Positions 31,705-37,485 of a DNA stretch of 64,000 nt are shown here, piece by piece; the first letter of the stretch is position 1; the number at the start of each line of letters is the position of its first letter. The position numbers were made by a program, and so were the translations under genes. Source of the stretch: Heyndrickxia acidiproducens DSM 23148 (GTDB lineage: Bacteria; Bacillota; Bacilli; Bacillales; Bacillaceae_C); NCBI RefSeq assembly GCF_000374345.1, contig NZ_KB893977.1, positions 62,001-126,000 of the forward strand, given 5' to 3'. Under the pieces are notes generated by a model. It had not been told where the DNA came from. It was given only the letters and a program-made list of their open reading frames with translations, and made no database searches.

Positions 31705-33042
31705 TTAAGTCAGGGATACACGGAGGCGGATATCATTTCGGATTAAGTCGGCATAAGTTTCCCGTTTGACGACAAGTTCTGCCCTGCCGCTTTCGACAAA
31801 AACCACCGGCGGGCGCGGGATCCGGTTATAATTGTTGGCCATCGAGTAGCCGTAAGCGCCGGTACAGAATACAGCAAGCAAATCATCACTTTCGGGCTTC
31901 GGGACAGGCAAATCCCATATCAGCATGTCCCCGGATTCGCAGCATTTCCCGGCAATTGACACGGTTTCTTCACATTTTTCCAGCGGGCGGTTGGCAAATA
32001 CAGCTTCATATTTGGCATCATAAAGCGCAGGGCGGATATTATCGCTCATGCCGCCGTCTACAGCCAGGTATTTTCTGACATTCGGCACTTCTTTGCTTGA
32101 TCCGACAGAATATAATGTCGTTCCGGCTTCTCCGACAAGTGAGCGTCCAGGCTCAATCCAGATTTCAGGTACCTTGAGGCCGTTGTCCCGGGCCTGTTTT
32201 TTTACTTCTTTTACAATCTCTTCAACATAATAACCGGGTGGAAGCGGATGGTCTTCGTTTGTATAGCGGATGCCAAACCCGCCCCCTAAATTCAGCACCT
32301 CAGGGAAGTAATGGTATTTATGATTCCATTCCACCAGTTTTGCCATAATTTTTTGCACCGCCAAAACGAAACCGGTCGTTTCGAAAATTTGTGACCCAAT
32401 ATGACAGTGCATACCGAGAAGTTCAAAAGAATTTGACTGCAAGGCTTGTTTGAGTGCGGCTTCAGCCTGCCCATTCTGGAGGCCAAAGCCGAATTTTGAA
32501 TCTTCCTGGCCCGTTAATATATAATCATGCGTGTGTGCCTCTATCCCGGGCGTTACCCGCAATAAAACCGGCACTTTGCACTTTCTGCTGCGGCACAGCC
32601 TTTCCAGCATGTCCAGTTCATAAAAATTATCGACAACGATACAGCCAATATTTGCATCCAAAGCCATTTCCAGTTCTTCGCGGCTTTTATTATTGCCATG
32701 AAAATGAATCTTTTCAACTGGAAATTCAGCAGCCAGGGCCGTATACAGTTCCCCGCCTGAAACCACATCGAGGGATAAACCTTCTTCATTCGCAATCTGC
32801 AGCATGGCAATGGACGAAAAAGCTTTGCTGGCATATGCCACCTGCGCCGTTACCCCAAGCGTTTGAAACGTTTCTTTAAATGCTCTGGCCCGCTGCCGTA
32901 TTAAAGCAATATCATATACATAAAGGGGCGTCCCAAACCGGGCAGCCAGGTCAACCGTATCGACGCCGCCGATTTCCAAATGCCCCTTGCCATTTACTTT
33001 CATCGTTCCGTATTCAATCATTGTTTCAACCCCACCGTTCAC
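31705..33042 (-). CDS. lysA: Diaminopimelate decarboxylase
   Basis: PLP enzyme making L-lysine from meso-diaminopimelate, the last step of lysine synthesis. The PLP lysine lies in VAYASKAFS near residue 70. HFHGNNKS, the glycine-rich LNLGGGFGIRY and EPGRSLVG follow, and CCESGDML with GAYGYSMANNYNR near the C-terminus forms the active site across the dimer. The start is either the GTG at 33042 (AAAGGA eight bases upstream) or the ATG at 33021. It lies between ribT and spoVAF, as in B. subtilis minus the genes lost between ribT and lysA. Confidence 0.95.
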   Translation of the reverse strand: MNGGVETMIEYGTMKVNGKGHLEIGGVDTVDLAARFGTPLYVYDIALIRQRARAFKETFQTLGVTAQVAYASKAFSSIAMLQIANEEGLSLDVVSGGELYTALAAEFPVEKIHFHGNNKSREELEMALDANIGCIVVDNFYELDMLERLCRSRKCKVPVLLRVTPGIEAHTHDYILTGQEDSKFGFGLQNGQAEAALKQALQSNSFELLGMHCHIGSQIFETTGFVLAVQKIMAKLVEWNHKYHYFPEVLNLGGGFGIRYTNEDHPLPPGYYVEEIVKEVKKQARDNGLKVPEIWIEPGRSLVGEAGTTLYSVGSSKEVPNVRKYLAVDGGMSDNIRPALYDAKYEAVFANRPLEKCEETVSIAGKCCESGDMLIWDLPVPKPESDDLLAVFCTGAYGYSMANNYNRIPRPPVVFVESGRAELVVKRETYADLIRNDIRLRVSLT

Positions 33043-33226: not shown

Positions 33227-34708
33227 TTATGCATCGGGCGGCTGCCTGAACCGGTCACCGGGATGAACGATGCTCGGCCGCAGTTTCGAACCCGGCACCG
33301 GCCTTCTGAAGATGATTTGCAAAAACGCCATTGGGTTGAACGGAATGAACGGCCAGAAATAGGGGGTATTTAATGAACGGATGGACACCAGAAATAAAAG
33401 GAACACCGTGCTGCCGATGACAAATCCCTTCACCTGAAAAAATCCGACGGCAATCAACAGCGTAACACGTGCGATCTTATTGGCAACGCTTAATTCATAG
33501 CTTGGCGTTACAAATGTGCCAATGGCTGCTGCTGATACGTAAAGAATCACTTCTGATACAAACAGCCCGACTTCGACGGCAATTTCCCCCACCATAACGG
33601 CCGCAATCAAGCCCATCGCAGTGGCCAGCGGCGTCGGTGTATGGATCGCGGCAATCCGCATAAATTCAACGCCGAGATCGGCAATCAAAAGCTGGAGAAT
33701 AAGCGGGATGTGGGATTCTTTATTGGGGCCGATATATTCCAGCTTGTCCGGCAGCAATGCTGTGTCAACCGAAACCAAATACCAGAGCGGCAGCAGAAAA
33801 ATGGATGTAAAAATCCCCAAAAATCGTACCCAGCGGATAAATGTCCCGACGGCTGCGGCCTGCCGGTATTCTTCCGCATGCTGCATATGGTGGAAAACAG
33901 TGGTCGGGGTGATCATCACGCTTGGCGATGTATCCACAAAAATCAATACATGGCCTTCAAGCAGGTGGGCGGCGCCGACATCTGCACGCTCAGTATAACG
34001 GATCAGCGGAAATGGATTAAACCCCTGTTTTTGCAGAAATTCTTCGACCGTTTTGTCCGCCATCGTAATGCCGTCAGTATCTATCGCTTTGATCTCCCGC
34101 CTGACCGTTTCGATTAATTCCGGATCAGCAACACCATCAATATAGGCAATGGATACATCTGTTTTCGAGCGTTCCCCCACCTTCATCATTTCAAACCGGA
34201 GGCGCTCGTCACGGATGCGCCTGCGTGTTAAAGCCGTGTTAAAGACAATATTTTCCACGTAGCCATCGCGTGATCCCCTTACCACTTTCTCTGTATCCGG
34301 CTCCATCGGCGTCCTTCCCGGATAATTGCGGACATCAATGATAATCGCTTCATTTTCCCCTTCCACAACGATGGCAATCAGCCCTGACAAAACCCGGTCC
34401 ACCATTTCATCAAGCGTTTTGGCAGTTTCGACCTGCATATGGGCAATTTGATTTTGGATCAGCTCATATGCTGCTTTATTGGAAGGATGGTCACCTTTGT
34501 TCAGCGCGAAGAGTGTTTTCAGAATTTGGATAATGGACATGGTATCCACCAGTCCGTTAAGATAGTAAAGTTGTAACTCCTTTTTTAGAATTTGGACCTT
34601 TCTTACCCCGATGTCATAGCTGACGCCTAAACCAACATGTTCTTTAAAAAAAGTTTCCAACACTTCCGGGTTGTCCGGAATCGGCCTTTTCTTGCCCGTA
34701 TTATCCAT
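33227..34708 (-). CDS. spoVAF: Stage V sporulation protein AF
   Basis: GerA-subunit-family membrane protein of the inner spore membrane. It has 493 residues, the B. subtilis length: a large hydrophilic N-terminal region (about 1-280), then several membrane segments (VRFLGIFTSIFLLPLWYLV onward). It has the GerA-type stretch EGHVLIFVDTSPSVMITPTT. AAGGGG precedes the ATG at 34708. Recent work links SpoVAF to DPA release as an accessory to the SpoVA channel. Here it directly follows spoVAB, without the spoVAC-AD-AEb-AEa genes that separate them in B. subtilis. Confidence 0.93.
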   Translation of the reverse strand: MDNTGKKRPIPDNPEVLETFFKEHVGLGVSYDIGVRKVQILKKELQLYYLNGLVDTMSIIQILKTLFALNKGDHPSNKAAYELIQNQIAHMQVETAKTLDEMVDRVLSGLIAIVVEGENEAIIIDVRNYPGRTPMEPDTEKVVRGSRDGYVENIVFNTALTRRRIRDERLRFEMMKVGERSKTDVSIAYIDGVADPELIETVRREIKAIDTDGITMADKTVEEFLQKQGFNPFPLIRYTERADVGAAHLLEGHVLIFVDTSPSVMITPTTVFHHMQHAEEYRQAAAVGTFIRWVRFLGIFTSIFLLPLWYLVSVDTALLPDKLEYIGPNKESHIPLILQLLIADLGVEFMRIAAIHTPTPLATAMGLIAAVMVGEIAVEVGLFVSEVILYVSAAAIGTFVTPSYELSVANKIARVTLLIAVGFFQVKGFVIGSTVFLLFLVSIRSLNTPYFWPFIPFNPMAFLQIIFRRPVPGSKLRPSIVHPGDRFRQPPDA

Positions 34709-34725
34709 GCTTATCCGCCCCTTTC

Positions 34726-35151
34726 TTAAAGATTTATAAAATAGAGCCACTGGAACAAGGATCCGATGATTTTCCCGAGGGCAATCGCCATCAGCGCGCT
34801 TGCCAGCTGGCCGTCGATTCCGATTCTTTTTGCAAAAATTGGAATCACATTAATGACTTCTGTTAAAGCCGCTGCAAGCATTCCGACAAAAACCCCGCAA
34901 AATAAGCCGGCAGGTACCGCAAGCAAGGGAGAAAACTGCCCGGCCGGGTTTCTCAGGCTGCCCCATGTTCCCGCCAGCGCTCCTAATACGACAGACCATT
35001 CATAGGATTGGATAAACCGGGCTGTTTTTGACAGCTGTACCAGCCTCGGTACAATGCCCAGTACCGTGAGAAAAGCTACAAATCCGCATCCTGCGACAAG
35101 CCCGCCGCCCAAGCCGAGCAGGACCACGAATAAATCTTTAACGATCATCAT
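34726..35151 (-). CDS. spoVAB: Stage V sporulation protein AB
   Basis: A 141-residue integral membrane protein with four or five hydrophobic segments and the family motifs GIVPRLVQLSKTARF and ALGKIIGSLFQWLYF. Its start lies inside the last codons of spoVAA (ATG repeats at 35143-35151), so translation is coupled. Its exact role in the spore membrane is unknown. The conserved spoVAA-spoVAB pair is intact. Confidence 0.9.
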   Translation of the reverse strand: MMIVKDLFVVLLGLGGGLVAGCGFVAFLTVLGIVPRLVQLSKTARFIQSYEWSVVLGALAGTWGSLRNPAGQFSPLLAVPAGLFCGVFVGMLAAALTEVINVIPIFAKRIGIDGQLASALMAIALGKIIGSLFQWLYFINL

Positions 35152-35761
35152 CAAAGTGTTTGATGTTCTCCTCGTTTTCGTTCAGCAAAATATAGCGGTC
35201 GATATCCTGCTGGTAATTAAAAATTTCCACTTCAAGCGGGCTTGGCTCTTCATTAAACCGTTTTTTAAATAAATGGTTAAAAAAAATGATCATCCCGGCC
35301 CCGAGCCCGAAAGAGTATGGAATTTGAAAAAGCAGCGGCGTGTCGTCATGAATACCGGTAATCATATAATAAATTTTCTCTTGGGCCGCCCGCATTCCCA
35401 CGTCCACATGAAAATTGATGATCGCAAGGGCTGACCCGAGAAAAAGCAGGATCCATATCAATGTAAATAACAGGAACGGCACTTTCCTTTTCCGCCCGGC
35501 AATTTCAATGATGGTTTGCGAAGGCCCGACCGGCGAAATTTCAGCTGCCGGAACTTGTTTTTTTATCGCCGTAATCATTTTCATTAAATCAATGACAACT
35601 GTTTCCCGGTCCGCTTTTGAAAGATGGTAAATAGGAATTTGCGGAAGGAGGCCTTGCAAATGGCCGGGGGCATTGATTTGTGCAATATGGGTTAGAAGGA
35701 TTAAACTATCAGGTTTTACGCGGATCCGGTGGCGCGGCCGCAAATATATCGTTTCATCCAT
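35138..35761 (-). CDS. spoVAA: Stage V sporulation protein AA
   Basis: A 207-residue protein: an N-terminal soluble domain (IYLRPRHRIRV) and two membrane segments near residues 98-115 and 150-168. The family motif IPYSFGLGAGMIIFFNHLFKKRFNEEPSPLE follows. GGGGTGA precedes the ATG at 35761. First gene of the spoVA operon, with a strong sigma-G-type promoter at 35794-35823. Confidence 0.92.
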   Translation of the reverse strand: MDETIYLRPRHRIRVKPDSLILLTHIAQINAPGHLQGLLPQIPIYHLSKADRETVVIDLMKMITAIKKQVPAAEISPVGPSQTIIEIAGRKRKVPFLLFTLIWILLFLGSALAIINFHVDVGMRAAQEKIYYMITGIHDDTPLLFQIPYSFGLGAGMIIFFNHLFKKRFNEEPSPLEVEIFNYQQDIDRYILLNENEENIKHFDDDR

Positions 35762-35793
35762 TTTAATCACCCCGCCGATATCTTAGTCGTTGT

Positions 35794-35823
35794 TAGTATG
35801 CGGTAATGTGGGCAATTCATGCA
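35794..35823 (-). promoter_or_regulatory. sigma-G (or sigma-F) promoter of the spoVA operon
   Basis: Minus-strand TGCATG (35818-35823), 17-base spacer, CATACTA (35794-35800). The -10 is a perfect match to the sigma-G pattern and the -35 differs at one base. The site lies 33 bases before spoVAA, known to be forespore expressed. Confidence 0.72.
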
Positions 35824-35900: not shown

Positions 35901-35937
35901 AAAAAAAGCGCATAGCTTTTTACATCTCCATGCGCTC
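35901..35937 (-). terminator. sigF operon terminator
   Basis: AGCGCAT (35907-35913) pairs with ATGCGCT (35930-35936), followed by T7 on the minus strand. It straddles the sigF stop codon. Confidence 0.8.
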
Positions 35938-36678
35938 TTTCATGACTTCCAATATTTTTTTCTCAAGCCGGGAAACCTGGACCTGGGAAATGCCAAGCCG
36001 GTCGGCGACTTCAGATTGGGTCTGGTCTTTGTAATATCTGAGGTAGACGATCAGGCGTTCCCTTTCTTCCAATCCCCTGATGGCTTCCTGCAAGGCGATT
36101 TTATCAAACCATTTCTGGTCATTCTGGTCAGAAATCTGGTCAAGCAAAGTAATGGGGTCGCCATCGTTTTCATAAACCGTCTCATGGATGGAAGAAGGGG
36201 ATTTTCCCGCTTCCTGCGCCATTACAACGTCTTCAACGGTAATCCCGAGCCATTCGGAAAGCTCAAGTACGGTGGGCGACCTGCCGTGCTTTTTCGTTAA
36301 CTCATCACGTGCTTTCCGGATGCGGTTGCCCGTTTCTTTTAAAGACCGGCTGACTTTTACGGTACCATCATCACGCAAAAAACGCTGAATCTCCCCGATG
36401 ATCATGGGAACCGCATAGGTTGAGAATTTTACATCGTAGGATAAGTCAAATTTATCCACCGATTTTAGGAGGCCGATACAGCCGATTTGGAATAAATCAT
36501 CCGGTTCGTATCCGCGGTTTAAAAAGCGCTGGACAACGCTCCAGACCAGCCGCATATTTTTTTCAACAATCAGATCGCGTGCCGCCTGCTCCCCGCTTTG
36601 GCTGCGCCTGATTAAGTCTTTGACCTCTTCATCCTTTAAATAGGTGTGTTTTTTGCCTTTTTTCAGTTCTACATCCAT
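35920..36678 (-). CDS. sigF: RNA polymerase sigma-F factor
   Basis: First forespore-specific sigma factor. It has 252 residues with region 2 (NMRLVWSVVQRFLNRGYEPDDLFQIGCIGLLKSVDKFD), region 3 and region 4 (QTQSEVADRLGISQVQVSRLEKKIL helix-turn-helix). AAGGAG lies eight bases before the ATG at 36678; a GTG two codons upstream is too close to that site. It follows spoIIAA and spoIIAB, which control its release. Confidence 0.97.
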   Translation of the reverse strand: MDVELKKGKKHTYLKDEEVKDLIRRSQSGEQAARDLIVEKNMRLVWSVVQRFLNRGYEPDDLFQIGCIGLLKSVDKFDLSYDVKFSTYAVPMIIGEIQRFLRDDGTVKVSRSLKETGNRIRKARDELTKKHGRSPTVLELSEWLGITVEDVVMAQEAGKSPSSIHETVYENDGDPITLLDQISDQNDQKWFDKIALQEAIRGLEERERLIVYLRYYKDQTQSEVADRLGISQVQVSRLEKKILEVMKERMEM

Positions 36679-36690
36679 CGGCACGACTCC

Positions 36691-37134
36691 TTAATTGCAT
36701 AAGGCATTTTTCAGGGCCAAATGCTTTTTTAGACGAACGACGGTGCCTGATTCTGGTTGTGACTGGATTTCCACATCGTCCATAAAGTTCTCCATAATGG
36801 TAAAGCCCATCCCGGATCTTTCGAGTTCAGGCTTTGTTGTAAACAAGGGCTGGCGGGCTTCTTCCACATCTTCAATGCCTTTGCCTTCGTCGCGGATCAC
36901 CAGTTCAACTGTCCCGTCTTCTTCAATAGCCGCCGACAAATAGACAGTCTCCTCCGGATTTCCTTCATAACCGTGGATGATCGCATTTGTTACCGCTTCT
37001 GAGACAACGGTTTTAATTTCAGTCAATTCGTCAAGTGTCGGATCAAGCTGTGCAATAAAAGCCGCAACGGTTATACGGGCAAAGGATTCATTTTGGCTGA
37101 GCGCTGTGAATTGCAGGTGCATTTCATTTTTCAT
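36691..37134 (-). CDS. spoIIAB: Anti-sigma-F factor and serine kinase SpoIIAB
   Basis: Binds and holds sigma-F inactive, and phosphorylates SpoIIAA. The GHKL ATPase motifs are [13 protein letters not shown] near residue 43, DEGKGIED near 80 and [11 protein letters not shown] near 107. The 147 residues match the family. Its ATG abuts the spoIIAA stop and sigF starts 12 bases after its end, so the three proteins should be made in fixed ratio. Confidence 0.97.
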
Positions 37135-37485
37135 TCAGGCAACCCCCAATCTGTGGAGCGCATATTGTTCGGATTTATCTAAGCGGATAATTTTAAACAG
37201 GCCGGATAATTCAAACAATCTCTTCACGGCCGGAGAAATCGCGCAAACGACCATTTCCCCGTTTTTCTGTTTAATTTGCTTATATCTTCCCAAAATGACG
37301 CCCAAACCGGAGCTGTCCATAAAGGAAAGCTGTTCCAGGTTCAGGACAAGATGGTGGATGCCGTTCTGGTCAATTGCCTTTGTCACGCTCTCGCGCAGCG
37401 CTTCAGCCGTGTGGTGGTCCAATTCCCCCTGAAGCCTGATACATAAAACATCTTTTTTCACTTCCAAGTCAATCGCTAGACTCAC
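37135..37485 (-). CDS. spoIIAA: Anti-sigma-F factor antagonist SpoIIAA
   Basis: STAS-domain protein whose unphosphorylated form displaces sigma-F from SpoIIAB. The phosphorylated serine lies in [15 protein letters not shown] near residue 57. 116 residues. GGAGGC precedes the start. A sigma-H-like promoter lies just upstream, and no terminator is visible after dacF, so late read-through from dacF is likely as in B. subtilis. Confidence 0.97.

Follow-up and report, generated by a model that had tools for sequence, protein, structure and literature searches.

How does a spore former manage when the operon expected to encode its dipicolinic acid (DPA) channel holds no channel genes? The question is raised by a 64,000-nucleotide stretch of the Heyndrickxia acidiproducens DSM 23148 genome (contig NZ_KB893977.1, positions 62,001 to 126,000; hereafter the window), where the spoVA operon between sigF and lysA consists of spoVAA, spoVAB and spoVAF. 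The locus resembles the spoVA1 operon of Bacillus subtilis (spoVAA-AB-AC-AD-AEb-AEa-AF) in its place between sigF and lysA, in its promoter type and in its related SpoVAA, SpoVAB and SpoVAF, as compared via B. mojavensis (L039) and other full loci; it differs in having no C, D, Eb or Ea gene. The answer that we hold with good confidence is that a seven-gene spoVA1 operon lost its channel core, that DPA is carried by a second channel, SpoVA2, and that the remnant was kept for germination signalling through SpoVAF and its partner FigP. In this proposal, the ancestral operon would have lost the DPA-channel core SpoVAC-SpoVAD-SpoVAEb, and SpoVAEa would have followed later, in the window species. 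The core loss would have been tolerated because the genome holds SpoVA2 (C2-D2-Eb2 and an NJ2-type lipoprotein, encoded between a DUF1360 gene and spoVIF), which is most likely the importer of DPA in sporulation and its exit route in germination. The remnant would have stayed under its old promoter because SpoVAF, together with FigP encoded elsewhere, would form an ion channel through which the germinant signal is amplified; accessory roles in SpoVAF/FigP signalling or for SpoVA2 may be why SpoVAA and SpoVAB were kept.

The initial annotation, made from the window alone, had described an AA-AB-AF operon with a 17-base gap between spoVAB and spoVAF and a good sigma-G-type promoter, and had found SpoVAC, SpoVAD, SpoVAEb and SpoVAEa missing from between spoVAB and spoVAF. 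Family searches and a promoter scan bear out all of this: SpoVAA, SpoVAB, SpoVAF (as a GerA-family protein), SigF and LysA are confirmed, and none of the four missing proteins is encoded at the sigF-lysA locus of the window. On the minus strand the order is dacF, spoIIAA, spoIIAB, sigF, spoVAA, spoVAB, spoVAF, lysA, where the first three names are presumed by us from the conserved order. The features are the following.

33227..34708, minus strand: spoVAF, GerA family PF03323 (516.5 bits), ATG at 34708; orthologue of the ion-channel subunit SpoVAF
34709..34725, minus strand: AB-AF linker of 17 bases, from the SpoVAB stop to the SpoVAF ATG
34726..35154, minus strand: spoVAB, PF13782 (123.4 bits)
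35138..35770, minus strand: spoVAA, PF12164 (68.3 bits), likely ATG at 35761
35794..35822, minus strand: putative sigma-G-type promoter GCATG-N17-CATACTA upstream of spoVAA, a consensus match
35920..36684, minus strand: sigF, TIGR02885 spore_sigF (375.4 bits, over the cut-off), upstream neighbour
36691..37485, minus strand: presumed spoIIAB and spoIIAA, open reading frames 36691-37134 and 37135-37485, upstream neighbours
31705..33042, minus strand: lysA, TIGR01048 (514.3 bits), downstream neighbour

In each of 13 relatives the best match to SpoVAF adjoins lysA and is 64-81% identical, and nearly all other matches reach 22-34%, the exceptions being one copy in G054 (49%) and a piece of 46 residues (39%). 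For the promoter we scanned with a sigma-G motif that we assumed from general knowledge. GCATG-N17-CATACTA is the sole exact match in the window; shuffled sequences (n = 100) held 0.27 matches on average, and 24 of them held at least one. Rarity alone is weak evidence, and what carries weight for this candidate site is where it lies and that it recurs ahead of spoVAA: in the loci of six relatives (spacers of 16-19) it is exact in four, has one mismatch in L011 and at least two mismatches in L014. Such a promoter would place expression of the remnant in the forespore. The assembly (3.32 Mb, 99.91% complete) is broken into 103 contigs, which could point to an artefact behind the split. However, the junction lies inside a contig, and loci without the core occur in other genomes of the family and in all four other members of the genus, which includes W. 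acidilactici and H. ginsengihumi; an artefact is therefore very unlikely, and the loci of the relatives exclude it in practice, to the point that we regard its chance as negligible.

We then asked where the channel is encoded. The initial annotation had reasoned that the core must lie elsewhere, or that DPA transport differs, and had proposed a genome-wide search for SpoVAC, SpoVAD and SpoVAEb, mobile types included, and for their promoters. The search found two SpoVAC/SpoVAEb-family genes and one SpoVAD in the whole genome, forming a single C-D-Eb set on contig C34; SpoVAEa (PF14097) had no match in the whole genome. The order on C34 is CotO, CotZ (opposite strand), DUF1360, lipoprotein, SpoVAC, SpoVAD, SpoVAEb, SpoVIF. 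The SpoVAD of this set scores 708 bits against itself and 324 bits against the SpoVA1-type SpoVAD of B. mojavensis, and the off-locus SpoVADs of relatives reach 405-622 bits with the C34 protein and 273-339 bits with the SpoVA1-type query. In a FastTree phylogeny of 147 distinct SpoVADs, built with no B. cereus group reference, one branch (support 98) parts 53 sequences found at the locus, beside spoVAB, from 94 found elsewhere, and the SpoVAD of the window genome sits among the 94. The match of place and type, perfect on the 147, is broken by 15 more sequences from distant Bacilli (two changes, in the at-locus group). Place alone does not define the type of a SpoVAD, and the assignment made here rests on the bit scores and on the tree of 147. 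Moreover, the open reading frame directly upstream of C2 on C34 bears a lipobox, and a profile comparison pairs it, at a probability of 99.9, with four lipoproteins from relatives that pass PF09580 (YhcN/YlaJ). Judged by phylogeny and neighbours, the C34 set is of SpoVA2 type and not the native core moved, and its predicted composition is that of the SpoVA2 complex (C2, D2, Eb2, NJ2) given in the accessible passages of PMC13059800. DPA transport thus differs in a limited sense only: the core is of SpoVA2 type with a lipoprotein neighbour, in place of native SpoVA1.

Relocation of the native SpoVA1 core to another part of the chromosome, instead of its loss, has precedents, since six distant Bacilli (G094, G115, G132, G162, G175 and G186) have an off-locus SpoVA1-type SpoVAD, with SpoVAC1 beside it in five of the six and SpoVAEb and/or SpoVAEa left at the locus. 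We consider such a move highly improbable for the window genome: its only SpoVAD is of SpoVA2 type by score and tree and has SpoVA2 neighbours, and the SpoVAD examined is of this type in all 34 genomes of the family as well. The SpoVAD type excludes it here, barring a SpoVA1-type core in an assembly gap. Four of the distant Bacilli (L339, L252, L258 and L265, in G132, G162, G186 and G115) have AA-AB-AEb-AEa at the locus, no AC, AD or AF there and SpoVA1-type AC-AD elsewhere, which is a different split of the same operon.

A mobile origin of the C34 set was also considered. Like spoVA2mob on Tn1546, as described in the passages of PMC5133452 available to us, it combines C-D-Eb with operon partners unlike those of spoVA1; it differs in lying at a site common to relatives. 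Within the flanks fetched, SpoVIF adjoins SpoVA2 in 30 of the 34 family genomes and a similar lipoprotein lies upstream in all 34 (in G077 via L121). These shared flanks argue against a mobile copy; no transposase search was made. Extra SpoVA2 copies occur in L091, L095, L193 and L194, and DUF1360/SpoVIF-type flanks were not seen there within the stretches checked. The one in L194 (G058:C138) has a transposase-like open reading frame, recognized by eye, just upstream of SpoVAC, and no lipoprotein match at that place. Neobacillus mesonae (L133, G013:C146) has two intact SpoVA2-type copies and a third SpoVAD in two overlapping pieces with one stop.

The next question is whether the window species stands alone. 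Relatives were compared in a named set of the 80 loci closest by SpoVAB, the best of 372 found, and in a family set of 34 genomes; the two sets overlap (G074 and L007, for example), and their counts are not additive. Among the 80 named loci, 46 are AA-AB-AEa-AF, 10 are AA-AB-AF and 24 have the core (three of these cut by a contig end; L063 was scored as core-bearing from SpoVAC alone, where its contig stops), so that the core is absent from the locus in 56 of 80. In the family, it is found at the sigF locus in none of the 34 genomes. SpoVAB is present in 25 of them, as 10 AA-AB-AEa-AF and 15 AA-AB-AF loci, the window genome included. The remaining nine read sigF-AF-lysA, with SpoVAF the only spoVA gene between sigF and lysA; SpoVAB has no match genome-wide in these nine, and SpoVAA is gone from the locus. 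The operon is thus eroded in grades of seven, four, three and one genes. On a tree of SigF plus LysA with 76 rows (five of 81 were left out for insufficiently complete SigF or LysA), the core changes state at least four times and SpoVAEa at least six. A wider sample of 111 genomes across Bacilli held 55 with SpoVAB, the window genome among them; SpoVAC and SpoVAD are missing from the locus in 24 of the other 54 (one of them, G158, seen on a short contig only), and each of the 24 has a SpoVAD elsewhere. Core loss is a lineage trait. The arrangement had been put forward as a possible novelty; for the core this is largely set aside by the relatives, and what remains particular to the window species within its genus is the loss of SpoVAEa.

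For whole-genome counts, 44 of the 80 named genomes, including all 10 with AA-AB-AF, were picked and joined to the window genome. Of these 45, 33 are without the core at the locus, the window genome included, and every one of the 33 has a SpoVA2-type SpoVAD; six of the 12 core-bearing genomes have one too. Sutcliffiella halmapala carries a full spoVA1 operon together with SpoVA2 flanked by DUF1360 and SpoVIF, and is the expected intermediate. The change counts lack direction; because the core-less genomes all have SpoVA2 and S. halmapala has both, we infer that, most simply, SpoVA2 was gained first and the SpoVA1 core lost afterwards. Since all 33 genomes without the core at the sigF locus have SpoVA2, the data suggest that many Bacillaceae have no DPA channel other than SpoVA2. 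In two Anoxybacillus flavithermus loci (L015 and L134), the SpoVA1 core is divergent (SpoVAC 42% and SpoVAEb 30% identical to B. mojavensis) and SpoVA2 is also in the genome; this core is perhaps on its way out.

The loss of SpoVAEa can be followed more closely, as all four other members of the genus keep the gene. In W. acidilactici, spoVAEa and spoVAF overlap, end to start, and the tail codons of spoVAEa (ILERSGF, read by eye) hold the spoVAF ribosome site. The window linker, GAAAGGGGCGGATAAGC, resembles a join of the AB-AEa and AEa-AF GAAAGGA sites of the sister species. Its edit distance to the joined sites is 4 for L007 and L160 (none of 2000 shuffles as close) and 6 for L161 (24 of 2000), these being the three genus members covered by the test, with the fourth, L146, left out. 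The linker looks like a residual SpoVAEa tail that would serve as the ribosome-binding site of spoVAF. Among ten other loci without SpoVAEa, L041, L056, L069 and L075 carry GAAAGGAG-TGG/CGG ahead of spoVAF, as the sisters do; the GAAAGGAG stretch is weak evidence of a scar, because it is also plain ribosome-site sequence. On the SigF plus LysA tree, SpoVAEa is lost only after the core. Class-wide, the exceptions to this order are G098, G118, G134 and G149, in which the core is present and the locus has neither SpoVAEa nor SpoVAF. In the 2012 genome set of PMC3533761, as far as its accessible text tells, SpoVAC, SpoVAD and SpoVAEb are found in all spore formers and SpoVAEa in all Bacillaceae; the repeated loss of SpoVAEa described here goes beyond that set.

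Why, then, was the remnant kept? SpoVAF stands at the locus in all 34 family genomes, and FigP (YqhR, PF11085) matches were found in all 45 genomes searched. The window genome encodes its FigP outside the window (G000:C2:154416-154892), so that both partners are present. In the class-wide sample, 47 of the 54 genomes could be used for a table of SpoVAF, scored at the sigF locus only, against FigP. Six genomes with neither SpoVAF nor lysA in reach were left out (G089, G094, G095, G116 and G175, without FigP, and G156, with FigP), as was G158, in which a short contig shows only spoVAB and lysA. FigP occurs in 33 of the 34 genomes with SpoVAF at the locus and in none of the 13 without it (plain Fisher p 1e-10, kinship ignored), and SpoVAF itself is divided evenly between loci with SpoVAC-SpoVAD (17) and loci without them (17). 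FigP agrees in nearly all independent pairings and none opposes, on a tree that holds only four SpoVAF changes. These data are suggestive of SpoVAF at the locus going with FigP and not with the spoVA core. The lone exception, L340 (G120), has SpoVAF at the locus and no FigP match in an assembly of 280 contigs, 96% complete. A stop lies inside the FigP match in four of the 34 FigP-bearing genomes of this sample (G099, G126, G156 and G164).

The graded erosion, with its nine family genomes reduced to SpoVAF, and the faster evolution described below would also fit an operon in decay, whose SpoVAA, SpoVAB and SpoVAF are no longer needed. We think this improbable. All three frames are open and the promoter is intact, and between the window and W. 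acidilactici the proportion of nonsynonymous differences (pN) is far below that of synonymous ones (pS, near saturation): 0.11/0.68 for SpoVAF, 0.16/0.71 for SpoVAB and 0.14/0.74 for SpoVAA, next to 0.10/0.68 for LysA. A row comparing SpoVAF of the window with L008 was dropped, its pN of 0.70 being at odds with a protein distance of 0.32 and taken as an alignment failure. The unbroken presence of SpoVAF in the family and of FigP in the genomes searched speaks against decay as well.

A more serious contender, which we nevertheless find unlikely, is that SpoVAA, SpoVAB and SpoVAF are direct-contact accessories of the SpoVA2 channel and not a separate ion-channel module. The remnant does persist where SpoVA2 is the only DPA channel found, and B. 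subtilis mutants deleted for spoVAA or spoVAB germinate prematurely, an effect suppressed by loss of gerA, and the two were suggested to be helpers of the C-D-Eb channel, according to the accessible part of PMC11841064. However, SpoVAF at the locus tracks FigP and not the core, and the SpoVA2 genes persist in the nine relatives without SpoVAB and without SpoVAA at the locus. The remnant is thus most likely a germination ion-channel module, SpoVAF/FigP with SpoVAA and SpoVAB, separate from DPA transport by SpoVA2. The broader statement could equally prove right or wrong: SpoVAF with FigP would be a germination module with a separate evolutionary history, which in B. subtilis just happens to share the operon with the DPA channel, the SpoVA1 core dropping out repeatedly under SpoVA2 while the module stays, and SpoVAA and SpoVAB serving the module or SpoVA2, not the SpoVA1 channel.

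Several results weigh against the proposal of a retained signalling module beside a SpoVA2 channel. One of the 45 FigP matches (G036) has an internal stop. The independent SpoVAF-FigP pairs number two on well-supported branches and four on all branches, too few for significance. Measured against lysA, the evolution of SpoVAF, SpoVAA and SpoVAB is somewhat quicker where the locus is reduced than where it is full: the median SpoVAF/lysA ratio is 1.22 in 27 reduced pairs and 0.75 in 10 full pairs, with all-pairs slopes of 1.29 and 1.12, and constraint on the remnant may therefore be partly relaxed. On the SpoVA2 side, the C34 lipoprotein taken alone misses PF09580 (E up to 1), and the closest that Pfam offers for it is a ribosomal S7e hit below the cut-off. 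The promoter part of the search proposed in the initial annotation gave no good sigma-G site for the SpoVA2 operon: in the window genome and in four relatives the best upstream sites have two mismatches, and no site is plainly conserved in an alignment of five upstream regions.

Work on known systems bears on the division of labour that we propose. A SpoVAF/FigP ion channel is said to have been reported by Gao in 2024. The channel is described in the passages of PMC13059800 and PMC11841064 that we could consult. The window genome resembles that system in having a SpoVAF orthologue and FigP, and differs in that its spoVAF shares an operon with spoVAA and spoVAB only, and with no DPA-channel genes. 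In B. anthracis, the accessible text of PMC13059800 reports, SpoVA2 drives DPA import; a normal DPA content requires the SpoVA2 locus but not SpoVA1, whose loss leaves the content normal and slows DPA release. By the same text, insertions in D1 and Eb1 germinate like the wild type, and insertions in F1 and figP are impaired in germination, like the whole-locus deletion. The C34 set resembles the spoVA2 of B. anthracis and the B. cereus group (C2, D2, Eb2, NJ2) in pairing a core with a YhcN/YlaJ-like lipoprotein gene and in being a type distinct from SpoVA1, a likeness drawn from the composition published there and not from B. cereus group sequences; the difference is that the window genome has no SpoVA1 core. 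The split is not described in the literature found, which comprised titles, abstract openings and passages with most subscription papers outside its reach, and we do not claim that it is unpublished.

The split is a variant of a known operon that occurs naturally and is widespread, and a known second channel explains it best. Its remaining interest lies in how cleanly it sets the SpoVAF/FigP module apart from DPA transport. In B. subtilis genetics, spoVA is handled as a unit, in which helpers of DPA transport are hard to tell from helpers of germination signalling; species without the SpoVA1 core and with SpoVAA, SpoVAB and SpoVAF separate the two helper roles naturally. If the separate-module reading is true, these species are natural separation-of-function strains. 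Species with SpoVA2 only also matter when spore heat resistance and germination genes are interpreted in species from food or probiotics.

Two minor observations concern the same genes. L251, L263, L266 and L271 (in G149, G134, G118 and G098) show the reduction opposite to that of the window: they retain the core, neither SpoVAEa nor SpoVAF is seen at the locus, and a FigP match is absent genome-wide; two of these genomes are less than 90% complete. Besides SpoVAF, the window genome encodes one other GerA-family protein, outside the window (G000:C8:51030-52427), and it apparently has one germinant receptor of the GerA type.

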